Positions 53,148 to 64,000 of a DNA stretch of 64,000 bases are shown here, one piece after another. This stretch comes from Sphingopyxis sp. H073 (GTDB lineage: Bacteria > Pseudomonadota > Alphaproteobacteria > Sphingomonadales > Sphingomonadaceae). Location: NCBI RefSeq assembly GCF_001468395.1, contig NZ_LNSG01000007.1, positions 62,001-126,000 of the forward strand, in the 5' to 3' direction. The translations under genes and the position numbers were made by a program. How positions within the stretch are numbered: the stretch's first letter is position 1; the number at the start of each line of letters is the position of its first letter. A model generated the notes under the pieces. It saw nothing but the letters and a program-made list of their open reading frames with translations. It did not search any database and had not been told where the DNA came from.

Positions 53148-53223
53148 GCCCGGGTAGCTCAGTTGGTAGAGCATGCGACTGAAAATCGCAGTGTCGGCGG
53201 TTCGACCCCGTCCCCGGGCACCA
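53148..53223 (+). tRNA. tRNA-Phe (GAA)
   Basis: 76-base cloverleaf. Acceptor stem GCCCGGG/CCCGGGC, D arm with AGTTGGTAGAGC, anticodon stem TGCGA/TCGCA with loop CTGAAAA giving anticodon GAA, T arm GGCGG-TTCGACC-CCGTC. Discriminator A is followed by an encoded CCA. It follows yacG after 94 bases. Confidence 0.98.
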
Positions 53224-53264: not shown

Positions 53265-54365
53265 TCAGACGATCGACAGCGCGAACAGCAGCGATGCGGC
53301 AAAGCTCGTCAGCGACGCCAGCAGTACCGGCACCGCCGCGCGCCAGCCCATCTCGAGCAGCAGCTCCAGCCGCGTCCGCATCGCGGTCGCCGTCACCGCG
53401 AGCAGCAGCAGCGCCTTCGACCCGGTGAGCGCGGCGGCGCGCATCGCTTCGGGGATCGGCGCCACGCTGTTCAGCGTCACCATCGCAAAGAAGGCCGTGA
53501 TGAACCAGGGCAGGGCAAGGCGCCGCCAGATGCGCGTGTCGCCACCGCCCTCGGGCTTCAGCAGCAGCCCGACGAGCGCGACGACCGGCGCGAGCAGCGC
53601 CACGCGCGCGAGCTTGACGATCGTGGCGCTCGCTCCCGCCGCGTCGGAAAAGGCATAGCCGCCGCCGATCGCCTGCGCGACGTCGTGGATCGACGCGCCG
53701 ATCAGGAAGCCCGCCTGCTTGTCGGTGAGGCCGAGTTCGCCCGCGAGCAACGGATAGATCGTCATCGCAAGCGCGCTCGCCAGCGAAACGCCGACCAGGG
53801 TCAGCGCGAACTGCGCCTGCGACAGCCGGTTCTTCCCGATCACGCCATAGAGCGCGAGCGCCGCGCTCGCGCCGCAGATCGCGGTCGCGCCGCCCGCCAG
53901 CAATCCGGCGTAGGGCGTCTGCCCCGACAGCCGCGCGCCCAGGAACCCGGCGCCCATCGTCAGCGTCATGATCACGATCAGCGCCGCGAACGGCACCGGC
54001 CCCAGCACCGCGATCTGGCCGAAGGTGACCTGCAGCCCCAGCACGACGATGCCGATGCGCAGGAAGGTACGCGACGCGAAATCGAGCCCGCGGTGCGTCA
54101 CCGCGTTCGCCGAGACGAAGTTGAGCGACAGCCCGACAAGCAGCCCGAGCAGGATGATCGGAAAACCATAATGGTCGGACAGCCACGCCGCCGCCGCCGA
54201 TCCCGCCGCGCAGGCGGCGAGACCCGGAAACAGGCTGCCTTTCGGCGCGGTTCCCGCCTTGACCTGCGCCAGGTGCAACTCGCCGAACAGGTCGCCGCCG
54301 CTCGGCAGGTCGTTCCAGTGCGCGTGCCGCATCGAGGTGCCGACGTTTCTGTCTAACGTTGTCAT
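53265..54365 (-). CDS. YeiH-family putative sulfate exporter
   Basis: 366-residue integral membrane protein with about ten helices. Family motifs: FPIILLGLLVGLSLNF, RIGIVVLGLQVTFGQIA, GGATAICGASAALAL, and GFLIGASIHDVAQAIGGGYA. The family is named for putative sulfate export, and some members accompany organosulfonate degradation. Next to the SmoC-like monooxygenase it would remove the released sulfite or sulfate; this is inference. The ATG at 54365 lies in a dyad shared with other genes here; a second in-frame ATG at 54332 is an alternative. Divergent from the LacI gene. Confidence 0.85.
   Translation of the reverse strand: MTTLDRNVGTSMRHAHWNDLPSGGDLFGELHLAQVKAGTAPKGSLFPGLAACAAGSAAAAWLSDHYGFPIILLGLLVGLSLNFVSANAVTHRGLDFASRTFLRIGIVVLGLQVTFGQIAVLGPVPFAALIVIMTLTMGAGFLGARLSGQTPYAGLLAGGATAICGASAALALYGVIGKNRLSQAQFALTLVGVSLASALAMTIYPLLAGELGLTDKQAGFLIGASIHDVAQAIGGGYAFSDAAGASATIVKLARVALLAPVVALVGLLLKPEGGGDTRIWRRLALPWFITAFFAMVTLNSVAPIPEAMRAAALTGSKALLLLAVTATAMRTRLELLLEMGWRAAVPVLLASLTSFAASLLFALSIV
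54350..54365 (-). promoter_or_regulatory. Predicted LacI-type operator, site 1 (exporter gene)
   Basis: On the minus strand the site reads ATGACAACGTTAGACA. It shares CTATGACAACGTTA exactly with site 2 at 55747. One half (ATGACAAC) is complete and the other matches only near the centre. The site coincides with the first codons of the exporter if the ATG at 54365 is used. Confidence 0.5.
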
Positions 54366-54523
54366 AGGATCGCGCCATATCGCGAGGCGAGGGAAGGGCG
54401 CAAGGCTTCTCTTGCGGTGCGCGGCGCGACGCGCCAAAGCAGACAGCGATGGTCAATCGGCGGGACGGGGAGATGCGCGGCCGTGACAGGGACTTGCCAG
54501 CCGGGGACGGAGCGTTTGCGCGG

Positions 54524-55552
54524 ATGACCCGGGCGACGATCAAGGATGTCTCGCGCGTCGCGGGGGTGTCGATCAAGACGGTGTCGCGCGTCCTCAACAA
54601 GGAACGCTATGTCAGCGACGACATGCGGCAAAAGGTCGAGGAGGCGGTCGCACGGCTCAACTACCATCCCAGCCTCGCCGCGCGCACGCTCGCGGGGCGG
54701 CGTTCGTTCCAGATCGGGCTGATCCACGACAACCCCAGCCCCTATTATATCTTCAACATGCAGGCCGGGGTCGGGCAACGGTGCCGCGAGGCCGATTTTC
54801 GCATGATCGTCCAGCCGTGCGACATCAACTCGCCCGGCCTCGTCGACGATATCGGCGCGCTGATCGATCAGGCGCAGCTCGACGGTATCATCATGACCCC
54901 GCCGGTCACCGACGTCGGCACCGCGCTCGCCGAGCTATTCCGGCGCAAGATCCCCGTCGTCCGCGTCCAGCCGGGCACCGACCTCACTGCGACCTCGGCG
55001 GTTTACATCGACAATGTGCAGGCGGCCGACGACATGACCGCCTATCTCATCTCGCTCGGCCATCGGCGCATCGGGCTCGTCACCGGGCACGCCAATTATT
55101 TCGCCAGCGGCCAGCGGCTGACCGGCTACCGGCAGGCGCTGCAACGCGCGGGCATCGGCTTCGACGCGTCGCTCGTCTTTCCCGGCCAGTTCGATTTCCA
55201 GTCGGGCGCCGCGGCGGCGGAGGCGCTGCTCGCGCTCGACGAGCCGCCGACCGCGATCTTTGCGAGCAGCGACGACATGGCGGCGGGCGTCCTCGCGGCG
55301 GCGCACCGCATCGGCATATCGGTGCCCGACCAGCTTTCGGTCGCGGGCTTCGACGACACCGACCTCGCGCAGGTCGTCTGGCCCGCGCTGACGACGATCC
55401 GCCAGCCGATCCGCGACTTGGGCTACGCCGCCGCCGACCTGCTGCTCGAATTCGGCGAGACGATCGAGCGCCGGCAATTGCCGCACGAACTGATCGTCCG
55501 CGGATCGACCGCGCCGCCGCGGCCAATGGATCCCGGATCAAGTCGGGGATGA
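54524..55552 (+). CDS. LacI-family transcriptional regulator
   Basis: 342 residues. Helix-turn-helix and hinge at the N terminus (TIKDVSRVAGVSIKTVSRVL, then LAARTLAGRRS) and a periplasmic-binding-protein-like effector domain (IGLIHDNPSPYYIF, GHRRIGLVTGHANYFASGQR, DEPPTAIFASSDDMAAGV, VAGFDDTDLAQVVWP). Probably represses the surrounding genes through the ATGACARCGWTRTC dyads. The start at 54524 begins at the HTH; an in-frame ATG at 54449 would add 25 residues. The last eight residues MDPGSSRG and the stop are encoded by a family A repeat. Confidence 0.92.
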   Translation: MTRATIKDVSRVAGVSIKTVSRVLNKERYVSDDMRQKVEEAVARLNYHPSLAARTLAGRRSFQIGLIHDNPSPYYIFNMQAGVGQRCREADFRMIVQPCDINSPGLVDDIGALIDQAQLDGIIMTPPVTDVGTALAELFRRKIPVVRVQPGTDLTATSAVYIDNVQAADDMTAYLISLGHRRIGLVTGHANYFASGQRLTGYRQALQRAGIGFDASLVFPGQFDFQSGAAAAEALLALDEPPTAIFASSDDMAAGVLAAAHRIGISVPDQLSVAGFDDTDLAQVVWPALTTIRQPIRDLGYAAADLLLEFGETIERRQLPHELIVRGSTAPPRPMDPGSSRG

Positions 55553-55554
55553 CG
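55526..55554. repeat. Half element of family A overlapping the lacI 3' end
   Basis: Right arm only: ATGGATCCCGGATCAAGTCG then GGGATGACG. It supplies the final codons and TGA of the LacI-family gene. A complete element follows 40 bases later (55592-55684). Confidence 0.85.
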
Positions 55555-55591
55555 AAGGCCTGAAAACGACCGGAAGCTGACCTATCTTTCA

Positions 55592-55684
55592 TCGTCACCC
55601 CGGACTTGATCCGGGGCCTGCCTTGTCTTTTCATCCGAGGCCCGAAGAGGAAAGGCGGATCCCGGGTCAAGCCCGGGATGACGA
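55592..55684. repeat. Intergenic inverted repeat, family A
   Basis: Arms CGTCACCCCGGACTTGATCC then GGGG, and GGATCCCGGGTCAAGCCCGG then GATGACG, with a 40-base spacer unlike the one at 5228. It lies between the regulator and the operator of the ExuT-like transporter. Confidence 0.9.
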
Positions 55685-55748
55685 CTGACGTGGCGACGGC
55701 TCCCCCCCCTTCCCGCCACCATCGAAAAAACCGGCTATCAATCCGGCT

Positions 55749-55764
55749 ATGACAACGTTATCTC
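55749..55764 (+). promoter_or_regulatory. Predicted LacI-type operator, site 2 (transporter gene)
   Basis: ATGACAACGTTATCTC, with inverted halves GACAAC/GTTATC differing at one position around a central CG. Located 32 bases upstream of the transporter start. Central-CG palindromes are the usual LacI-family operator form. Confidence 0.6.
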
Positions 55765-55795
55765 ATCAGCCAAACAGATTCGGGGAGAGACGATC

Positions 55796-57046
55796 TTGGC
55801 GCAAATCGCCGACAAACGCCGCTGGCTCGTGGTGGGGCTCGTCTTCGTCGCGATCGTCCTCAACTATGTCGACCGCCAAATCCTCGCGCTGCTCAAGCCG
55901 ACCTTGCAGGCCGAATTCGACTGGACCGACCGCGATTACAGCCACATGGCCTCGGCGTTCCAGTTCGCCGCAGCGCTCGCTTTCCTTGGTACCGGCTGGT
56001 TCATCGACAAGGTCGGCTTGCGCCGCGGCTTCGCGATCGGGGTCGGCGTGTGGAGCCTCGCGGGCATGGCGCACGCCTTCGCGTCGACCGTCGCGGGCTT
56101 CGTCACCTCGCGCGCCGTGCTCGGCGCCGCCGAATCGATCGGCACCCCGGCCGCGGTGAAGACCGCCGCCACCTATTTCAACGCGAAGGAGCGCAGCTTC
56201 GTCCTCGGGCTCGGCGGCATCGCCCCCAATGTCGGTGCGATCCTCACGCCTTTGCTCATCCCCCTGATGGCGATGATGTGGGGCTGGCAGGCGACCTTCC
56301 TGATCGCGGGCGGGCTCGGGCTCGTCTGGGTCGTCGTCTGGCTGATGGTGCGCATCCCCGAACAGCCGAACGCCGCGCGCGACGCCGCCGCGCCGAAGAT
56401 CGCGTGGGCCAGCCTGCTCCGCGACCGCCGCCAATGGGCGGTGATCCTGGGGAAGGCGCTCACCGACCAAGTCTGGTGGTTCCTGCTCTTCTTCATGCCC
56501 GACCTGTTCCACCGCGTCTTCGGCCTGACGCAGGGCACGCTCGGTCTTCCCGTCGCCTTCGTCTATTTCATGGCGGCATTGGGCGGCATCACCGGCGGCT
56601 ATCTGCCGTCGTACCTGATGGGCCGCCGCGGCTGGAGCGTGAACGCCGCGCGCAAGACGACGATGCTCATCTACGCGTTGCTCATCCTGCCGGTGCCCTT
56701 GCTCGTCGGCGTCGACAGCGCGTGGGTCGCGGCGATGATCCTCGGCCTCGCGCTCTTCGCGCATCAGGGCTTCTCGACCAATCTCTTCGGGCTCACCACC
56801 GACGTCTTCCCCGCGCGGATCGTCGGCTCGGCGATCGGCATCGGCGCTTTTGCGGGCAATCTCTCGGGCATGGCGATGATCGAGTTCGCGGGCTGGTCGC
56901 TCGACACGGGCAGGGGGTATCTGCCGATGATGCTCGTCTGCGCCGTCACCTACCTTGTCGCGCTCGCGGCGATCCATCTGATCCTGCCGCGCATCGTCGC
57001 GGTCGATGAAGAGGAGGATGGCGAGGTGCAGGTGCTGGCGCATTGA
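55796..57046 (+). CDS. MFS transporter, ACS family (hexuronate transporter ExuT-like)
   Basis: 416 residues, twelve helices. N terminus VLNYVDRQILALLKPTLQAE, SHMASAFQFAAALAFLGTGW and DKVGLRRGFAIGVGVWSLAG are typical of hexuronate/galactonate carriers. GTPAAVKTAATYFNAKERS follows. ExuT relatives import anionic sugars; a sulfosugar such as sulfoquinovose is also an anionic hexose, so this is a fitting importer for the locus (inference). The start is TTG at 55796, chosen for the GGGGAGAG 7 bases upstream; an out-of-frame ATG at 55749 belongs to the operator. Confidence 0.85.
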   Translation: MAQIADKRRWLVVGLVFVAIVLNYVDRQILALLKPTLQAEFDWTDRDYSHMASAFQFAAALAFLGTGWFIDKVGLRRGFAIGVGVWSLAGMAHAFASTVAGFVTSRAVLGAAESIGTPAAVKTAATYFNAKERSFVLGLGGIAPNVGAILTPLLIPLMAMMWGWQATFLIAGGLGLVWVVVWLMVRIPEQPNAARDAAAPKIAWASLLRDRRQWAVILGKALTDQVWWFLLFFMPDLFHRVFGLTQGTLGLPVAFVYFMAALGGITGGYLPSYLMGRRGWSVNAARKTTMLIYALLILPVPLLVGVDSAWVAAMILGLALFAHQGFSTNLFGLTTDVFPARIVGSAIGIGAFAGNLSGMAMIEFAGWSLDTGRGYLPMMLVCAVTYLVALAAIHLILPRIVAVDEEEDGEVQVLAH

Positions 57047-57070
57047 TCGGAATGCTGGCGCGTATTTTAT

Positions 57071-57137
57071 GTTCCCCGGCGAAAGCCGGGGCCCATCTCC
57101 TGCCGCTGAATGGACCCCGGCTTTCGTCAGGGAACAC
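57071..57137. repeat. Intergenic inverted repeat, family B (GCGAAAGCCGGGGCCC type)
   Basis: Left arm TTCCCCGGCGAAAGCCGGGG then CCCATCTCC; right arm GGACCCCGGCTTTCGTCAGG then GAA. Related copies at 59207 and 63677 use CCGCGAAGGCGGGGGCCCAT and CCTGCGAAGGCAGGGGCCCA. All three lie in the last 7 kb. Confidence 0.88.
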
Positions 57138-57208
57138 GAAGGGCGAAATTTAACGAACCGCAAAACCGCATACGAAACCCGCTTCCCTCGACCTGACTTA
57201 TGGAGTAT

Positions 57209-57224
57209 ATGACAGCGATGTCAG
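57209..57224 (+). promoter_or_regulatory. Predicted LacI-type operator, site 3 (reductase gene)
   Basis: ATGACAGCGATGTCAG, containing perfect 5-base arms TGACA/TGTCA around GCGA. It overlaps the candidate start codons (57209 and 57218) of the aldo/keto reductase gene, so binding would block the very start of the message. Confidence 0.6.
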
Positions 57225-58120
57225 ACCATCTTCCCGCTCCCGCCAACGTGACCCTCGCCGGTCATGAAGTCTCCCCCATCGCCTGGGGCATGTGGCGCTT
57301 CGCCGGCGTCAATATTTCGACTGCCCGCGCGCGCATCGACGCCGCGTTCGAGGCGGGCGTCACTTTGTTCGACACCGCCGACATCTACGGCTGCGACACC
57401 CCCGGCGGTTTCGGTTCGGCCGAGGCGCTGCTCGGCGAAGTCTTCGCCGAAGCCCCCGACTTGCGTGAAAAAATGGTGCTCGCGACCAAGGGCGGGATCA
57501 TCCTCGGCGTCCCCTACGACAGCAGCGCAACTTATCTGACCTCCGCCATCGACATCTCGCTGAAACGCCTGCGCACCGACCATGTCGAGCTGTGGCAGAT
57601 CCACCGCCCGGACCTGCTCAGCCACCCGCAGGAAATCGCGCGGACCCTCGAGGAAGCGCATCGCGCGGGCAAGATCGGCGCGATCGGCGTGTCGAACTTC
57701 ACGCCGTCGCAAACCGAGGCGCTCGCCAAATTCTTGCCCGTTCCGGTGGTCAGCCATCAGAGCGAATTTTCGCCGCTTCACCTGAACCCGCTCTTCGACG
57801 GCATCTTCGATCAGTCGATGGCCGAGGGCATGAGCTTCCTCGCCTGGTCGCCGCTCGGCGGCGGCCGGCTCGGCGATCCGGAGGGCGAGCGCACGCGCGC
57901 AGTCGCCGGACTGCTCGACGCGAAGGCCGCGGAGTATGGCGTCTCGCGCGCCGCCGCGACCTACAGCTGGGTGATGGCGCATCCCGCGCGCCCGATCCCG
58001 ATCGTCGGCACGCAGAATGTCGAGCGAATCAAGGAAATTCCGCAGGCCTTCGCCCCGCGCTGGACGCGCGCCGAGTGGTACGCGGTGCTGCAAACATCGA
58101 TGGGGGAGAATCTGCCATGA
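57218..58120 (+). CDS. smoB: Aldo/keto reductase, SmoB-like (6-oxo-glucose reductase)
   Basis: 300 residues. The AKR catalytic tetrad is complete: Asp52 and Tyr57 in FDTADIYG, Lys91 in LATKGG, His129 in LWQIHRPD. VGVSNF, FLAWSPLGGG and PIPIVGTQNVERIKEI match the subfamily to which SmoB belongs, as does the end W..VLQTSMGENLP. SmoB reduces 6-oxo-glucose, the desulfonation product of sulfoquinovose, to glucose with NADPH. Its stop overlaps the start of the SmoC-like monooxygenase (ATGA), the arrangement expected for consecutive steps. ATGs at 57200 and 57209 are alternative starts; 57218 has GGAG 12 bases upstream. Confidence 0.75.
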   Translation: MSDHLPAPANVTLAGHEVSPIAWGMWRFAGVNISTARARIDAAFEAGVTLFDTADIYGCDTPGGFGSAEALLGEVFAEAPDLREKMVLATKGGIILGVPYDSSATYLTSAIDISLKRLRTDHVELWQIHRPDLLSHPQEIARTLEEAHRAGKIGAIGVSNFTPSQTEALAKFLPVPVVSHQSEFSPLHLNPLFDGIFDQSMAEGMSFLAWSPLGGGRLGDPEGERTRAVAGLLDAKAAEYGVSRAAATYSWVMAHPARPIPIVGTQNVERIKEIPQAFAPRWTRAEWYAVLQTSMGENLP

Positions 58121-59184
58121 CCGACCGCAGTTGCGAAGTCAGCTGGTTTTCGGCGCTCTGCGACGACGACTATGAATTCCTCGGCGTTCCCGACCCGATG
58201 CTCAAATCGAGCTGGGAGCATTGCCGTGATATCGTGATGCAGGCCGATGCCCAGGGCTTCGACAATATCCTGCTGCCGTCGGGTTATGCGCTCGGCATCG
58301 ACACCACCGCTTTCGCCGCGGCGATCGCGACGATGGTGAAGCGCATCCGCCTCTTGATGGCGGTTCGCATCGGCGAAAGCTGGCCGCCGCAGCTCGCGCG
58401 CCAGATCGCAACGATCGACCAGATCCTCGGCGGCCGGCTGACCGTCAACATCATCTCGTCGGACATGCCGGGCGAGACGATGGACTCCGAACCGCGCTAC
58501 CGCCGCACGGTCGAGGCGATGCACATATTGAAGACGCTGCTCAATGGCGAAGCGCTCGACCATGACGGCGAGTTCTGGAAGCTGCAACTCGAACCGCCAC
58601 GCGTCGGCACCGTGTCGGGCAAGGCGCCGCCGCTCTACTTCGGTGGCCTGTCTCCGGCCGCGCGCGACGCCGCCGCGAAGGGCTGCGACGTCTTCCTGAT
58701 GTGGCCCGATCGCGAGGAGGTGGTGAAGGCGATCATCGCCGACATGACCCAGCGCGCCGCCGCGTACGGCCGCACCCTCAAATTCGGCTACCGCGCGCAC
58801 ATGATCGTGCGCGACACCGAAAGCGAAGCGCGCGCCGCCGCCGACCGGCTGCTCTCGAAACTCGACGCCGCGAAGGGCGCCGAGATCAAGGCGAAGTCGC
58901 TCGATTCGCAGTCGTTCGGCGTCAACGCGCAGGTCGCCTTGCGCGAAGCGGCGTCCGACGACGGCTATGTCGAGGATAATCTATGGACCGGCGTCGGCCG
59001 CGCCCGCTCGGGCTGCGGCGCCGCGATCGTCGGCGACCCCGACCAGGTGCTCGCGAAGCTGAACCGCTATCAGGACATGGGCATCGAGGCGTTTATCCTC
59101 TCGGGCTACCCGCACGCCGCCGAAGCCGACCTCTTCGCGCGCCATGTGCTGCCGAAGATGAACCACGGTCCGCTGGTGCTCTGA
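58117..59184 (+). CDS. smoC: LLM-class flavin-dependent monooxygenase, SmoC-like (sulfoquinovose monooxygenase)
   Basis: 355-residue TIM-barrel monooxygenase of the alkanesulfonate monooxygenase (SsuD) group. Group features: FDNILLPSGYALGIDTTAFA, PPQLARQIATIDQILGGRLT, NIISSDMPGE, LYFGGLSPAARDAAAKGCDV. The start EVSWFSALCDDDYEFLGVP and the C-terminal VEDNLWTGVGRARSGCGAAI are, from memory, hallmarks of SmoC, which uses FMNH2 and O2 to turn sulfoquinovose into 6-oxo-glucose and sulfite. A separate flavin reductase is needed but is not in the window. GGGGGAG precedes the ATG. Alternative: an alkanesulfonate monooxygenase for another sulfonate. Confidence 0.75.
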   Translation: MTDRSCEVSWFSALCDDDYEFLGVPDPMLKSSWEHCRDIVMQADAQGFDNILLPSGYALGIDTTAFAAAIATMVKRIRLLMAVRIGESWPPQLARQIATIDQILGGRLTVNIISSDMPGETMDSEPRYRRTVEAMHILKTLLNGEALDHDGEFWKLQLEPPRVGTVSGKAPPLYFGGLSPAARDAAAKGCDVFLMWPDREEVVKAIIADMTQRAAAYGRTLKFGYRAHMIVRDTESEARAAADRLLSKLDAAKGAEIKAKSLDSQSFGVNAQVALREAASDDGYVEDNLWTGVGRARSGCGAAIVGDPDQVLAKLNRYQDMGIEAFILSGYPHAAEADLFARHVLPKMNHGPLVL

Positions 59185-59579: not shown

Positions 59580-60155
59580 ATGTTCAAACGACTCTTTGGG
59601 AAACGGCCTGCTGAACAGGCGCCACCAACTGCCGATGCGGAGCCAGAAATTAAGGTCTCTCTGATCAGCATTGGCGGTGCTCCAGAACTTGATTTTCTTT
59701 TTATCAGGCCGAAGCCGATAGATGTGGTTCGCGCGCTGGAAGGCTGGACGTGGATTGGCCTTGAGGGTCTGACTGTGGTTGCTGTCTCGGCGTTTGGCGA
59801 GACTTTCTTTCAGACCGACAGCCAAGAGATTCTCTATCTGGACACAATTGAGGGTCGAATTGTCGCCATCGCGCCCAGCCTGTCCGCCTTCACTGCTGAC
59901 CTTCAGGAGGTGGAGAAGCGCGATCAGCTGTTGTTCGGTGGAATGGTATTAGCTGCACGAAGTCGCGGATTGGTCCTCTCGCCGGAAGAGTGCTATGACT
60001 ACAGGATAGCTCCGATCCTTGGCGGCCAAATGGACGTTGAAAATATTGAAAAAATGTCCTTTGTCGTGAAACTGCACATAGCCGGGCAGATACATGAGCA
60101 GGTAAAGGATTTGCCGCCAGGAACCCGGATCAACAGCTTCAAAATTTCCGACTAA
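59580..60155 (+). CDS. Tdi1/DUF1851-like protein, possible immunity protein
   Basis: 191 residues. The C-terminal half (LLFGGMVLAARSRGLVLSPE, then the GG...N segment ILGGQMDVENIEKMSF and a hydrophobic helix VVKLHIAGQIHEQV) resembles the DUF1851 domain of Tdi1, the immunity partner of the T6SS effector Tde1. The N terminus is an unrecognised beta-rich domain. No toxin gene is adjacent. The codons are visibly AT-richer than those of every neighbour, which suggests recent acquisition. GGGGAGA lies just upstream of the ATG. Confidence 0.6.
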   Translation: MFKRLFGKRPAEQAPPTADAEPEIKVSLISIGGAPELDFLFIRPKPIDVVRALEGWTWIGLEGLTVVAVSAFGETFFQTDSQEILYLDTIEGRIVAIAPSLSAFTADLQEVEKRDQLLFGGMVLAARSRGLVLSPEECYDYRIAPILGGQMDVENIEKMSFVVKLHIAGQIHEQVKDLPPGTRINSFKISD

Positions 60156-60162
60156 GCGGCCA

Positions 60163-61329
60163 CTAACCCGCCCAAACCTGCGCATAGAGCATCGCCATTT
60201 CCTCGCTATCCGGCACGCGCGGATTGTTCGCAGGCGATCCCGACGCCGCCGCCTGGGCGCACATCGTCGGGACCAGTGCGTCCCAGCGCGCCGCGTCGAT
60301 GCCCCACGCCGCCGGCCCCGGGACCTCGAGCTCGCGGTTGAGCGCCGCCAGTTCATCCAGCAATCGCGCCACCGCTGCCTGATCGCCCTCGGCTTCGTCC
60401 GCCACCCCCATCGCCCTTGCGCAATCGGCGTAGCGATGCAGCGCCGCGGGCGCCGACCATGCGGTTACCGCAGGCAGCAGCATCGCGTTCGACAGCCCGT
60501 GCGGGACATGGAAATGCGCGCCGATCGGCCGGCTCATCCCGTGGACCAGCGCGACCGAGCTGTTCGAAAAGGCGATCCCCGCCTGCGTCGCGCCCAGCAT
60601 CATCGCCTCGCGCGCCGCCGCGTCCGTCGGGTCGCTGCACACGCGCCGCAAATTCGGCGCAATCGCGCGCATTGCGAGCAGCGCCATGCCGTCGCTGAAC
60701 GGATTGGCGCGCTTCGACACATAGGCCTCGATCGCGTGTGTCAGCGAATCGATGCCGGTGTCGGCGGTCAGCCTTTTGGGCTTCGTAAACGTCAGCTCAT
60801 AATCGACGAGCGCCGCGAGGGGCAGATAGGCGAGCCCCGGGCACAGCATCTTTTCGTCGGTCGCCTCGTCGGTGATGATCGTGAAGCGCGTCGCCTCCGA
60901 CCCCGTGCCCGCCGTCGTCGGGATCGCGATCACCGGCAGCCCCGGCGCGTCCTGAACATGCGGCGCCTTGTAATCCGCCATCGCCCCGCCGAACCGGCCA
61001 AGCAGCGCGATCGCCTTCGCACTGTCGAGCGGACTGCCGCCGCCGAAACCGACGACGCAATCATGATCGCCGTCCCGCAGATAGGCGACCCCCGCATCGA
61101 CCGACGCCACTGTCGGGTCGGGCACCGTATCGGCAAACACCCGCGCCGCGATTCCTGCTGCCGCCAGCCCGTCGGTCAGCTCGGCGACACGCCCGCTGCT
61201 CACCAGATATCGGTCCGTCACGATCAGCGGCCGCGACAGCCCCAGCGCCGCCAGCACCTCGGGCAATTGCTTCGACGCCCCACCGCCGATGCGCAGGATG
61301 CGGGGCAGGGCGATGCTTGCGATACTCAA
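60163..61329 (-). CDS. Iron-containing alcohol dehydrogenase (group III)
   Basis: 388 residues. NAD-binding GFGGGSPLDSAKAIALL, substrate/metal signature IPTTAGTGSEATRFTIITDE, metal ligands in TGIDSLTHAIEAYVS (Asp, His) and ALVHGMSRPIGAHFHVPHG (His, His). It resembles lactaldehyde/1,2-propanediol oxidoreductase and related Fe-ADHs. The start is TTG at 61329, overlapping the stop of the upstream transporter gene (TTGA) with a GGAG upstream. Substrate unknown; it might act on a sugar-derived or sulfonated C3 aldehyde, but nothing in the sequence decides this. Confidence 0.85.
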   Translation of the reverse strand: MSIASIALPRILRIGGGASKQLPEVLAALGLSRPLIVTDRYLVSSGRVAELTDGLAAAGIAARVFADTVPDPTVASVDAGVAYLRDGDHDCVVGFGGGSPLDSAKAIALLGRFGGAMADYKAPHVQDAPGLPVIAIPTTAGTGSEATRFTIITDEATDEKMLCPGLAYLPLAALVDYELTFTKPKRLTADTGIDSLTHAIEAYVSKRANPFSDGMALLAMRAIAPNLRRVCSDPTDAAAREAMMLGATQAGIAFSNSSVALVHGMSRPIGAHFHVPHGLSNAMLLPAVTAWSAPAALHRYADCARAMGVADEAEGDQAAVARLLDELAALNRELEVPGPAAWGIDAARWDALVPTMCAQAAASGSPANNPRVPDSEEMAMLYAQVWAG

Positions 61330-62660
61330 CTCACCATCTCCTCGCGGATCGACCTCCGCGCCAGCCAGAACAGTCCCGACGCCACCGCGCCGAACAGGAT
61401 GAAGATCATCAACGACCAGCGTACGCCTTCGGCCGACCCTAGCCCCATCGGGCCGCTGATGAAATCGCTGACCGCACCGACGCCCAGCGGTCCCAAACCC
61501 AGCCCGATCAGATTGATGATGAACAGCAGCACCGCCGACGCCGTCGCGCGGGTCTGCGGCTGCACCAGCCCCTGCACCGCGGCATAGCCCGGCCCGTACC
61601 ACATCGTGTTCAGCACCGGCGGAAAGGCAAACATGATCAGCGCGAAAACCGCGGAGTCCGAGAGCAGGCCGGCGATGTAGAAAGGAATACCAATCAAGGT
61701 CGAAACCGCGGGGATCGCGACATAGAAGCGCAAGTCGCGCGCGCCATATTTGTCGGCGAGATAGCCGCCCATCCACGTCCCGACCGCCCCGGTCAGCCCC
61801 AGCACGATCCCCAGCGCAACGCCGAGAAAGCCCGTCAGCCCGAGCCCGAAATCGTCGGCGATCACGGTTAGCTCGGCCGCATGGTTGCGGAAAAAGAAGG
61901 GTGCCAGAAACGCCGCGGCGCCATAGCCGATGAACGCCTTGATCGCGGCAGCAAAGGCGATCAGCCAGAAGGTGCGTTTGCCGCGAATTTCGGCCATCGC
62001 GGTCTTGAAGTCGGGCCGCGCGGCCTTCAGCGCAGCCAGGTCGACATTCATCTGCCGCCGCGGCTCGCGCAAGGTCGTCCACGCAACAAGCGCCATTAAC
62101 AGCCCCGGCAGTCCCGCAAACAGAAACGCCGTTCGCCAGCCATAGGCATCGGCGATCAGTCCGCCGAGCGCGAGCCCCAGCAACCCGCCGAGCGGCGTCC
62201 CGAGTGCGTAGAAGGCGAGCGCCGACGCGCGCTTCTCGCGCGGTGTGTAATCCGTGATCAGTGAATGCGCGGGCGGCGTGCACCCCGCTTCGCCGATCCC
62301 CACCCCGACGCGGCACGCGACGAGTTGCACGAAATTCTGCGCATAGCCGCACGCCAGCGTGAACAGGCTCCACAGCCCCGCCGCCACCGCGATGATCCGC
62401 GGCCTGTGCCCCGTCTCGGCATAGCGCGCGATCGGGATGCCGAGCACGGTATAGAACAGCGCGAAGGCGAGGCCGGTCATCACCCCCAGCTGCCAGTCGG
62501 CGAGGCCGAGGTCGTGCTTGATCGGTTCGGCGAGGATCGCGACGATCTGCCGGTCGAGGAAATTGAGGATATAGATGACGAGCAGCACGCTCAGCGCGTA
62601 GCGGCGATATGCTTTCGACACCGGCGCGATGGCGGGCGGGGCGGGGGCTTCGGCGGTCAT
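61326..62660 (-). CDS. MFS transporter, spinster-like family
   Basis: 444 residues, twelve helices. LLVIYILNFLDRQIVAILAE, GVMTGLAFALFYTVLGIPIA, GVGIGEAGCTPPAHSLITDY and EKRASALAFYALGTPLGGLL are typical of the spinster-like carriers abundant in sphingomonads. The substrate is not predictable. Coupled to the Fe-ADH gene by overlap; it may import that enzyme's substrate. Its start region is separated from the TIM-barrel gene by a family A repeat and operator site 4. Confidence 0.87.
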   Translation of the reverse strand: MTAEAPAPPAIAPVSKAYRRYALSVLLVIYILNFLDRQIVAILAEPIKHDLGLADWQLGVMTGLAFALFYTVLGIPIARYAETGHRPRIIAVAAGLWSLFTLACGYAQNFVQLVACRVGVGIGEAGCTPPAHSLITDYTPREKRASALAFYALGTPLGGLLGLALGGLIADAYGWRTAFLFAGLPGLLMALVAWTTLREPRRQMNVDLAALKAARPDFKTAMAEIRGKRTFWLIAFAAAIKAFIGYGAAAFLAPFFFRNHAAELTVIADDFGLGLTGFLGVALGIVLGLTGAVGTWMGGYLADKYGARDLRFYVAIPAVSTLIGIPFYIAGLLSDSAVFALIMFAFPPVLNTMWYGPGYAAVQGLVQPQTRATASAVLLFIINLIGLGLGPLGVGAVSDFISGPMGLGSAEGVRWSLMIFILFGAVASGLFWLARRSIREEMVS

Positions 62661-62806: not shown

Positions 62807-62822
62807 ATGACAGCGTTGTCTG
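62807..62822 (+). promoter_or_regulatory. Predicted LacI-type operator, site 4 (TIM-barrel gene)
   Basis: ATGACAGCGTTGTCTG, with GACA/TGTC arms around GCGT. It ends 12 bases before the start of the TIM-barrel gene. Together with sites 1-3 it gives the consensus ATGACARCGWTRTCWK (site 1 weakest). Confidence 0.6.
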
Positions 62823-62834
62823 AAAAGGAAGTCC

Positions 62835-63671
62835 ATGCCCGAATTGCTCGTCCTCCAGTCGGTCTGGGGCCTCGACAAATGCCCCGGTTTTGACATCGAC
62901 AACCGCCTCGACGACGCGCTCGAGCAAGTCGTCGCCGCGGGCTTCGACGGTGTCGGCGTCAACCTCGCCCGCACCGCGCGTACCGACGGCGTCGCGCGCG
63001 CGATGAACCCGCTCGGCCTCGCATGGGAAGGGCAGGTGCTCGTCGACGACGCTGCCCAGCTCACCCACTGGATCGGCGAGGCGCAGCGCCTCGGCGCGCA
63101 CCATCTCAACGTCCAGATCGCCGGCCCGACCGCCGACTTCCGCGCCGCGCTGCACCTGATCGACAGCCTCGTAGCCGCGGCGAAGGATGCGCCGCTCCCC
63201 GTCTGGTTCGAAACCCACCGCGGCCGCCTCACCAACGATCTGCTCTTCACGTTGCGCCTGCTCGAGGAACGCCCCGGCCTGCCGCTCACCGCCGACCTTT
63301 CGCACTATCCCGTCGCGGGCGAGATGGAGCTGCCGCTTCGCCCCGACCAGCTCGCCGCGATCGAAACGATCCTGCAGGGCAGTCATAATTTTCACGGCCG
63401 CGTTTCGACGACGCATCAGGTGCAGGTCGCGATCGATGCGCCGCAGCACCAAGGCTGGCTCGACCAGCATATCGCCTGGTGGCGCCGCGGCTTCGAGCTG
63501 TGGCTCGAACAGGCGCGCGCGGGCGACGCGCTGACCTTCATGTGCGAGCTCGGCCCGCCGCCCTATGCGATCACCGCGCCCGACGGCAGCGAACTCACGA
63601 ACCGCTGGGACGAAGCGCAGCGCATGCGCGACATCGTGCGCGGTCTGTGGCGCGAGGTGACGGGTAACTAA
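62835..63671 (+). CDS. Sugar phosphate isomerase/epimerase family protein (TIM barrel)
   Basis: 278-residue AP-endonuclease-2-type barrel. Metal-ligand positions appear as Glu in WFETHRGRLT, Asp/His in LTADLSHYPVAG, His in HGRVSTTHQVQ and Glu in FMCELGPPPYAI. The family isomerises or epimerises sugars or polyols. AAGGA lies 5 bases before the ATG. Operator site 4 puts it in the predicted LacI regulon with the SmoB/SmoC pair; its substrate is unknown. Confidence 0.82.
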   Translation: MPELLVLQSVWGLDKCPGFDIDNRLDDALEQVVAAGFDGVGVNLARTARTDGVARAMNPLGLAWEGQVLVDDAAQLTHWIGEAQRLGAHHLNVQIAGPTADFRAALHLIDSLVAAAKDAPLPVWFETHRGRLTNDLLFTLRLLEERPGLPLTADLSHYPVAGEMELPLRPDQLAAIETILQGSHNFHGRVSTTHQVQVAIDAPQHQGWLDQHIAWWRRGFELWLEQARAGDALTFMCELGPPPYAITAPDGSELTNRWDEAQRMRDIVRGLWREVTGN

Positions 63672-63796: not shown

Positions 63797-64000
63797 TCAC
63801 ACCGCCACCGCCTCCCGCCAGCGCGCAAACGCCGCGTCAGCCTCATCGCGCGACACCCTCGGCAGAAACTCGGCATCATATCGCGCCAACCGCTTCAGAT
63901 CGCTTTCCCCGAACAATCCGGCGCCCATCCCCGCCGCCAGCGCCGCGCCATAGGCGCTCGCCTCGCGCACCGCGTGTCGCCGCACCGGCCGCTGCAAGGC
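63797..64000 (-). CDS. FGGY-family carbohydrate kinase, C-terminal end (partial)
   Basis: The last 67 residues of a protein that continues beyond the window. LQRPVRRHAVREASAYGAAL then AAGMGAGLFG matches the C-terminal adenine-binding motif of FGGY kinases such as glycerol kinase, xylulokinase and fuculokinase. It is distinct from the complete glpK at 5654. Being next to the TIM-barrel and Fe-ADH genes, it may phosphorylate a sugar or polyol handled by this locus. Confidence 0.8.
   Translation of the reverse strand, partial: ALQRPVRRHAVREASAYGAALAAGMGAGLFGESDLKRLARYDAEFLPRVSRDEADAAFARWREAVAV

Follow-up and report, generated by a model that had tools for sequence, protein, structure and literature searches.

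Layout of the locus

The stretch analysed here (the window) comprises 64,000 nucleotides of Sphingopyxis sp. H073, positions 62,001 to 126,000 of contig NZ_LNSG01000007.1 (C7) in a 4.31-Mb genome of 27 contigs. Near its right end, a sequence-only reading had placed a putative oxidative sulfoquinovose (SQ) catabolic locus of five genes, ending with an aldo/keto reductase and a luciferase-like monooxygenase (LLM). The following genes and features bear most directly on this proposal (coordinates above 64,000 extend the window numbering):

53265..54437 (likely start 54365), minus strand: YeiH-type exporter (Cons_hypoth698, PF03601, E 8e-50)
54449..55552 (likely start 54524), plus strand: LacI-family regulator (Pfam LacI, Peripla_BP_3)
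55750..55763: operator-like palindrome TGACAACGTTATCT, 5' of the MFS gene, 2 mismatches to TGACAACGTTGTCA
55796..57046, plus strand: major facilitator superfamily (MFS) carrier of the galactonate-transporter type, MFS1 (MFS_1; TIGR00893 171 bits, cut-off 395)
57200..58120, plus strand: aldo/keto reductase, SquF-like, in the putative SmoB role (PF00248, E 3e-52)
57210..57223: operator-like palindrome TGACAGCGATGTCA at the reductase start, overlapping candidate ATGs 57209 and 57218, 2 mismatches
58117..59184, plus strand: predicted SQ monooxygenase of the SmoC/SquD type, dependent on reduced flavin mononucleotide (FMNH2) (Bac_luciferase; tree)
68384-70444, minus strand, beyond the window: predicted GH31 sulfoquinovosidase (SQase; match to 5ohy)
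70572-72896, minus strand, beyond the window: TonB receptor

All five left-hand genes exceed their Pfam cut-offs (Cons_hypoth698, LacI/Peripla_BP_3, MFS_1, Aldo_ket_red and Bac_luciferase), and open reading frames (ORFs) and Pfam agree with the gene order described earlier and with the four-base overlap (ATGA) between the reductase and monooxygenase genes. The end of the locus at 59184, in contrast, proved to be set too short, as genes continue past the end of the window to ~72,900. The SQase and the TonB receptor had been missed because both lie beyond the window. Since they belong to the same genome, the region can be described as a predicted SQ-glycoside locus of about 20 kb.

The monooxygenase groups with presumed sulfoquinovose monooxygenases

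Compared with proteins of known structure, the monooxygenase scored 385 bits with 7olf and 378 bits with 7oh2, which we take to be the Rhizobium and Agrobacterium SQ monooxygenases, against 228 bits with 7jv3 and 199 bits with E. coli SsuD. The depositors named 7olf a methanesulfonate sulfonatase and 7oh2 an alkanesulfonate monooxygenase. In a tree of 47 rows, including SsuD, MsuD (7jv3) and SfnG rows, the window protein, 7olf and 7oh2 fell in one 35-row clade with a support of 100/99, apart from the SsuD, MsuD and SfnG rows; the placement of the sfnG row, on its very long branch, is unsure. Grouping with alkanesulfonate or nitrilotriacetate (NTA) monooxygenases, which the sequence-only reading had named as the result that would speak against it, was not observed with the SsuD, MsuD and SfnG rows, and the NTA monooxygenases, which are not among the rows of the tree, scored only 28 to 42 bits. 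Within the clade, W196, R226, H228, R297 and Y331 (SsuD numbering) were kept in 35/35 rows, SsuD C54 was absent from all of them, and 32 columns were kept in at least 34 of the 35 rows and absent from the remaining 12 rows. We regard this as a strong phylogenetic argument that the window LLM protein is an SQ monooxygenase of the SmoC/SquD type, and the earlier assignment to the SQ monooxygenase (sulfo-SMO) pathway gains support from it.

The protein could instead be a desulfonase that scavenges sulfur from alkanesulfonates or methanesulfonate, like SsuD or MsuD. It shares the LLM family with them, and its best NCBIfam model is alk_sulf_monoox, reached with 257 bits against a cut-off of 518. 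Its position in the SMO clade, the absent C54 and the 32 SMO-specific columns speak against such a function, as do the SQase and the TonB receptor in the same cluster and the lack of an ATP-binding cassette (ABC) importer among the genes assigned to the cluster (the rest of the genome lay outside this search), so that we consider it very improbable. An SsuD or MsuD identity as such was ruled out by the tree and the scores.

We used four sets of genomes: 35 relatives of the same genus, and samples of the order (396 genomes), class (385) and phylum (398), the latter three including the genome itself. In the class sample, 45 of the 385 genomes matched the monooxygenase at E 1e-30 or better, and no full-length rows were found at 39%-49% identity; in its own genome, the query had one match at E 0.001. 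The tree neighbour of 7olf and 7oh2 was an LLM protein from a plasmid of Roseicitreum. Its gene lies in a stretch that also encodes a Gfo/Idh/MocA protein, a GntR regulator, an aldo/keto reductase, a flavin reductase, a tripartite ATP-independent periplasmic (TRAP) importer and a YeiH-type exporter. This gene content is consistent with a sulfo-SMO cluster of the Roseobacter type, in which GH188 is near-universal according to PMC10755693. Two further observations concern the monooxygenase genes themselves. One 573-residue protein (P0084) has both Bac_luciferase and Aldo_ket_red domains, a monooxygenase-reductase fusion that is either natural or made by the assembly. One SMO locus (L191) is borne by plasmid pKN1 of Sphingobium yanoikuyae, and a second LLM oxidoreductase, a ferredoxin, an FAD-binding protein, a sulfatase and a gene of the sulfate-exporter family lie near it.

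The aldo/keto reductase probably takes the place of SmoB

The catalytic tetrad noticed in the sequence-only reading was found as D58, Y63, K97 and H135 in an alignment read by eye. For a comparison of gene neighbourhoods, we used the best 80 of at least 585 loci from a scan for the monooxygenase, 51 of which are at least 20 kb long; the nearest of the 80 come from Sphingopyxis. The reductase gene lies directly 5' of the monooxygenase gene, on the same strand, in 77 of the 80, the other three (L042, L085 and L097) having no reductase match. In 76 loci an in-frame NTGA stands at the monooxygenase match or no more than 60 bases before it, which hints loosely at an overlap. The pairing of the two genes is thus no accident of position.

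The reductase scored 150 bits with 7bbz, which is presumably SmoB, versus 156 bits with the YdhF-like 4r9o. In the reductase tree (33 loci, of which L163 and L174 had no reductase match and L165 and L181, with less than 200 residues, were left out), SmoB, the Roseicitreum reductase and other reductases from Roseobacter- and Rhizobium-type clusters grouped with YdhF (100/98), together with the reductase of G056, a genome of the window's own order. A single clade of 27 SMO-linked reductases was rejected with a p-AU of 0.0098 in a test that left out PDB_4r9o, in which the group was named post hoc and the outgroup branches are long. The window reductase lies outside the group of SmoB and YdhF and is not orthologous to SmoB. 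The claimed resemblance to SmoB and SmoC holds for the monooxygenase, a member of the SMO clade, and not for the reductase, since SmoB groups with YdhF. Because of this grouping and the rejection of the single clade, the reduction of 6-dehydroglucose has probably been taken on by aldo/keto reductases of different branches, and the window protein would take the place of SmoB without being its ortholog. Orthology to SmoB is not needed for membership in the pathway, since SquF of Novosphingobium aromaticivorans was shown to perform this step (PMC9594981). Genomes with SmoB and SmoC within 10 ORFs are counted in PMC13372026; a PF00248 reductase co-localises with SmoC here as well.

Sulfoquinovosidase, transport and sulfite

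The GH31 protein, encoded ~9 kb onward from the monooxygenase, scored 928.7 bits with 5ohy, which we take to be the Agrobacterium SQase, and 673-727 bits with 8r56, 6pnr and E. coli YihQ; YicI-type proteins came next with 148 bits. The GH31 protein retains K245, E270, R283, W286 and Y491 of 5ohy, presumably the sulfonate-binding set, as well as the two presumed catalytic residues, D455 and the Asp of MADFGE (388). A full monooxygenase was found in 13 of the 35 same-genus relatives and a fragment in one more. The SQase was present in all 13 and in G018, an 85% complete genome of 480 contigs with no monooxygenase match. SQase and monooxygenase travel together in the genus.

MFS1 is proposed, on sequence grounds, to be the inner-membrane importer of SQ or SQ glyceroside. 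Its likeness to carriers of anionic sugars (galactonate type) would also suit a substrate of the monooxygenase-reductase pair other than SQ, namely another 6-sulfo sugar or an SQ derivative (e.g. sulfofucose or a sulfo-sugar acid), and Paracoccus degrades sulfofucose by a sulfofucolytic route according to PMC12421959. However, the SQase keeps the SQ-binding residues checked, and a sphingomonad, N. aromaticivorans, degrades SQ with SquD and SquF (PMC9594981), which leaves a different sulfo sugar an improbable substrate.

Homologs of YeiH (at least 40% identity), LacI (at least 45%) and MFS1 (at least 50%) were found in 39, 48 and 38 of the 80 loci, respectively. As YeiH confers sulfite resistance in Salmonella (PMC12880088), the YeiH-type protein is a probable sulfite exporter by analogy. 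A SorA-type sulfite dehydrogenase gene (L060:2645-3880; 502 bits, cut-off 600) has homologs in 17 of the 80 loci. Among the 51 loci of at least 20 kb, YeiH occurs alone in 23, YeiH and SorA together in 10, neither in 18 and SorA alone in none. The idea that the two are alternatives was ruled out by these counts, SorA being accompanied by YeiH in 10/10 cases.

Recurrence in sphingomonads and relation to known systems

The same 51 loci carry the aldo/keto reductase in 49 cases, LacI and a TonB receptor in 38 each, YeiH in 33, MFS1 in 32, a GH188 candidate in 28, GH31 in 17, a flavin mononucleotide (FMN) reductase in 12 and SorA in 10. LacI, MFS1 and YeiH are all present in 22 and all lacking in 6. 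GH31 and the GH188 candidate never occur together: 28 loci have only the latter, 17 only GH31 and 6 neither, so that 45 of the 51 carry one of the two. The MFS carrier, YeiH and LacI, which the sequence-only reading had called non-standard, are real and recur in sphingomonads, where they form a common set. Nor is YeiH a sphingomonad peculiarity, because a YeiH-type gene is also found in the Roseicitreum cluster.

The Agrobacterium tumefaciens sulfo-SMO cluster, SmoA-I, was reportedly described by Sharma et al. 2022, and presumably uses an ABC importer. The locus shares with it the SmoC-type monooxygenase coupled to an aldo/keto reductase and a GH31 SQase of the Agrobacterium type. It differs in having an MFS carrier and a TonB receptor in place of the ABC importer and a LacI-type regulator, in the lack of a flavin reductase among its assigned genes and in a reductase that is not a SmoB ortholog. 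ABC, TRAP and MFS plus TonB look like importer swaps around one chemistry.

The locus had also been taken for a sphingomonad variant of the pathway. It is not the first, because N. aromaticivorans DSM 12444, with a sulfo-ASMO cluster of the SquD/SquF kind (Liu et al. 2021 via PMC9594981), and Sphingomonas sp. Leaf17, among the representative clusters in the figure 5 legend of PMC10755693, are already in print. Sulfo-SMO in sphingomonads is published, and the locus is not new in kind. Compared by description, the N. aromaticivorans cluster resembles it in its sphingomonad host, its SquD/SquF chemistry and its lack of an SsuE-type reductase, and the part of PMC9594981 at hand makes no mention of the kinase trio described below. 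The Leaf17 locus (L103) has LacI, YeiH, MFS, the TonB receptor, the reductase and the monooxygenase in common with the window, and the palindrome both 5' of the MFS gene and at the reductase start. Where the window's genome has the GH31 SQase, Leaf17 has a Gfo/Idh/MocA GH188 candidate; its cluster also includes an FMN reductase and lacks the kinase set. In the open-licence literature we found no paper joining Sphingopyxis with sulfoquinovose, and none of the papers on LacI and sulfoquinovose concerned a sphingomonad, judging by titles and the starts of abstracts.

An operator-like palindrome recurs in the loci

The operator-like palindrome TGACAnCGnTGTCA occurs 5' of the MFS gene, at the reductase start and in the gap between a TIM-barrel gene and a second MFS gene (MFS2). 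Its 14-bp pattern, TGACAACGTTGTCA, is identical to its own reverse complement. At up to 3 mismatches, the window holds three matches (55750, 57210 and 62808), all with 2 mismatches and all in the locus. The case for the site is weakened by dinucleotide shuffles of the window, which gave a mean of 0.9 matches at this threshold and reached 3 in 5 of 100. At up to 2 mismatches, the whole genome has 6 places versus 5 for the backwards control, and because of this the genome-wide count alone proves nothing; in favour of the site are the 3 of the 6 places that sit within 7.1 kb in the locus and its recurrence 5' of different genes in relatives.

We then counted sites (up to 2 mismatches) in zones from -150 to +25 of each gene of the loci, using shuffles that kept base content only; the motif itself had been defined by eye on the sites of the window, the loci are related to one another, and divergent genes share zones. 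Sites were present in 33 of 72 reductase zones (shuffled 0/1440), 22 of 35 MFS1 zones (0/700) and 6 of 7 TIM-barrel zones (0/140), as well as in zones of the GH188 candidate (16/43), YeiH (10/37), the TonB receptor (3/48) and MFS2 (1/7); shuffled zones had no sites. None were found in zones of LLM (0/80), LacI (0/48), GH31 (0/15), the FGGY kinase (0/7), the GlpD-like gene (0/7), the iron-containing alcohol dehydrogenase (Fe-ADH, 0/8), SorA (0/16) or the FMN reductase (0/18). The site is further weakened by the 39 of 72 reductase zones and 13 of 35 MFS1 zones that lack it, 27 and 3 of which, respectively, have one at 3 mismatches. In the window's own locus, the yeiH/lacI gap has only a 4-mismatch site, the best site upstream of Fe-ADH has 5 mismatches, and the right part beyond the window has no palindrome at up to 2 mismatches. 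In G208, a genome from outside the genus, the MFS1 gene and the TIM/MFS2 gap retain sites and the SmoBC pair, ~260 kb away, has none. The palindrome recurs in many but not all relatives, a new observation of this analysis, and we infer that it may be the operator of the LacI protein.

An extra gene set accompanies some of the loci

Between the monooxygenase and the SQase, the locus contains the following features:

59580-60155: ORF of 191 residues with a Tdi1 C-terminal domain (PF08906, E 2e-12)
60163..61320, minus strand: Fe-ADH of the lactaldehyde-reductase type (PF00465/PF25137)
61326..62660, minus strand: second MFS carrier, MFS2 (PF07690), divergent from the TIM-barrel gene across an operator-like site
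62808..62821: operator-like palindrome TGACAGCGTTGTCT in the MFS2/TIM-barrel gap, 2 mismatches
62835..63671, plus strand: xylose-isomerase-like TIM barrel, probable sugar isomerase/epimerase (model, Foldseek)
63797-65224, minus strand (the window holds 63797..64000, the 3' end): GlpK-like FGGY kinase (GlpK model)
65330-66733, minus strand, beyond the window: FAD-linked oxidase, an AGPS-like flavoprotein (best solved match alkyldihydroxyacetonephosphate synthase)
66825-68387, minus strand, beyond the window: GlpD-like dehydrogenase, overlapping the GH31 gene by four bases on the same strand

The set formed by Fe-ADH, MFS2, the TIM barrel, the FGGY kinase, the AGPS-like flavoprotein and the GlpD-like dehydrogenase was found in 7 of the 80 loci (Fe-ADH in 8), with Sphingobium boeckii and Sphingomonas colocasiae among its carriers. 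Close kinase orthologs (at least 87%) occur in 10 of the 35 same-genus relatives, nine of which have the full monooxygenase and one, G018, the SQase. In the order sample the kinase was matched at E 1e-110 or better in 4 of 396 genomes; G208, with SmoBC elsewhere on the same contig, is the carrier outside the genus. The flavoprotein was matched at E 1e-50 in 10 of the 398 genomes of the phylum sample, and in the nine other than our own its neighbours, seen in short stretches, include a GlpD-like gene in 5 and the kinase in 1 (G770). In the sampled genomes, the trio of kinase, dehydrogenase and flavoprotein, with the isomerase, Fe-ADH and second MFS carrier, is found only where SQ genes occur, which is new here.

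The kinase scored 331 bits with the NCBIfam GlpK model, below the cut-off of 590. Of the residues that we take to be the glycerol contacts of GlpK (R83, E84, W103, Y135, D245, Q246 and F270), it keeps R83, W103, D245 and Q246 of the E. coli enzyme, but E84, Y135 and F270 are replaced by A, Q and V, changes seen in 4/4 orthologs examined (T, Q and T in G770). In this comparison the canonical rows L125 and L130 were excluded for a wrong frame (14% and 13% identity with E. coli GlpK) and only L126 was used. Because of these three substitutions, plain glycerol is unlikely to be the best substrate; a plain glycerol kinase was ruled out by the pocket residues and the cut-off. The GlpD-like protein (283 bits, under the GlpD cut-off of 360) keeps 9 of the 10 residues checked (L89 is I), and the flavoprotein scored 193 bits with alkyldihydroxyacetonephosphate synthase. 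The nearest solved structures to Fe-ADH are alcohol dehydrogenase 2 and lactaldehyde reductase. A PDB sequence search with the TIM barrel gave no match worth naming; its model (pLDDT 81) was closest in Foldseek to the D-allulose 3-epimerase 7ern (E 2e-6, TM 0.63, 12% identity), and an ortholog has a weak PF01261 match under the cut-off.

By description, the GliR-activated PA3026-PA3024 operon of Pseudomonas aeruginosa also combines an FAD-binding oxidoreductase, a GlpD homolog and an FGGY kinase; it differs in its AraC-type regulator, and SQ genes are not mentioned in the accessible part of PMC8151288, in which the authors link the operon to glycerolipid metabolism without settling on a role. 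The protein kinds shared with it would fit a locus for a glycolipid head group. They can also be read, together with the altered glycerol pocket of the kinase, as signs that what follows to the right of the monooxygenase is a polyol-catabolic island with no link to the SQ genes beyond adjacency. The G208 set, which sits with LacI and MFS1 ~260 kb from SmoBC, and the palindrome-free kinase and GlpD-like zones point the same way. Against this stand the palindrome in the MFS2/TIM gap and in most TIM-barrel zones, the overlap of the SQase and GlpD-like genes and the SQ genes in every genome found with a close kinase ortholog (our own, the 10 relatives and G208). In G770, of another family, distant GlpD-like, FAD-linked oxidase and FGGY genes lie ~30 kb from the SMO genes, and in G002 a GlpD homolog adjoins the SMO genes, though its identity to E. 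coli GlpD (47%) exceeds that to the window protein (35%). An independent polyol island is a serious possibility, if short of an even chance. That one regulon couples SQ sulfolysis to an aglycone pathway, in which the extra set acts on a glycerol derivative or a tetritol rather than on plain glycerol and the whole head group is used, seems rather unlikely on present evidence; if true, the pathway would have a further relative in the GliR operon of P. aeruginosa.

Some further observations concern the integrity and borders of the locus. The Tdi1 ORF had no match in the relatives' loci compared, being seen in our own genome only, and is probably an orphan immunity gene of a type VI secretion system inserted into the locus. 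A tRNA-Phe gene (53148-53223) borders the locus on the left and, since the locus is patchy in the genus (13/35 relatives), an island at a tRNA is possible. One relative (L150, G023:C1:398000-412000) has a decayed copy, in which the monooxygenase, MFS1, MFS2 and YeiH were matched in part only, and the reductase, LacI and Fe-ADH over the whole or nearly the whole length.

Proposed pathway

Taken together, we consider it probable, at roughly 0.88, that the locus degrades SQ glycosides by the oxidative sulfo-SMO (sulfo-ASMO) route. The TonB receptor and the MFS carrier would import SQ or SQ-glycerol, from which the GH31 protein, judging by its strong sequence match, would free SQ. The LLM monooxygenase is predicted to cut the C-S bond, converting SQ to sulfite and 6-dehydroglucose with reduced FMN that would come from a reductase encoded elsewhere, and the aldo/keto reductase, from its context, would reduce 6-dehydroglucose to glucose. 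YeiH would export the sulfite, as the Salmonella phenotype suggests. The recurring sites suggest that the LacI protein may control the MFS gene, the SmoBC pair and the MFS2/TIM genes through the 14-bp palindrome, and in this Sphingopyxis-type version the extra set may handle the aglycone side of the lipid head group. The sequences themselves show the genes, the SMO clade, the conserved SQase residues and the recurrence of gene order and palindrome; the substrates, the direction of transport, the palindrome-binding protein and the function of the extra set are deduced from them.

Several results weigh against this scheme. The window reductase and the other sphingomonad-type rows fall outside the SmoB/YdhF group, which leaves context and the example of SquF of N. 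aromaticivorans as the grounds for its substrate. In G208, the orthologs of LacI (78%) and MFS1 (80%) accompany the kinase set, away from SmoBC, so the LacI effector and the MFS1 cargo may be those of the kinase set. The SMO stretches of G002, G011, G208, G056 and G770 lack the palindrome, counted at up to 2 mismatches. Both MFS1 and YeiH remain under their NCBIfam cut-offs (for YeiH, TIGR00698 106 bits against 232.6), although YeiH belongs to its Pfam family. Finally, no flavin reductase was found among the cluster's assigned genes, and the FMN-reductase query had no match in our own 34 kb, in which other flavin reductase families were not searched for, as the rest of the genome was not; a homolog occurs in 18 of the 80 loci. 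N. aromaticivorans is likewise without SsuE (PMC9594981), so that a flavin reductase in the cluster is not obligatory.

SQ is an abundant sulfo sugar of plants. Its production amounts to ~10 billion tons/year (PMC10755693), and in incubations of mangrove and fresh water the sphingomonad Novosphingobium was one of the main SQ users (PMC13372026). For sphingomonads, the locus offers a candidate regulator site that can be tested. It also suggests that aldo/keto reductases of more than one branch have come to serve the reductase step of the pathway, and the trio of kinase, dehydrogenase and flavoprotein may have its substrate in the second half of the sulfolipid head group.

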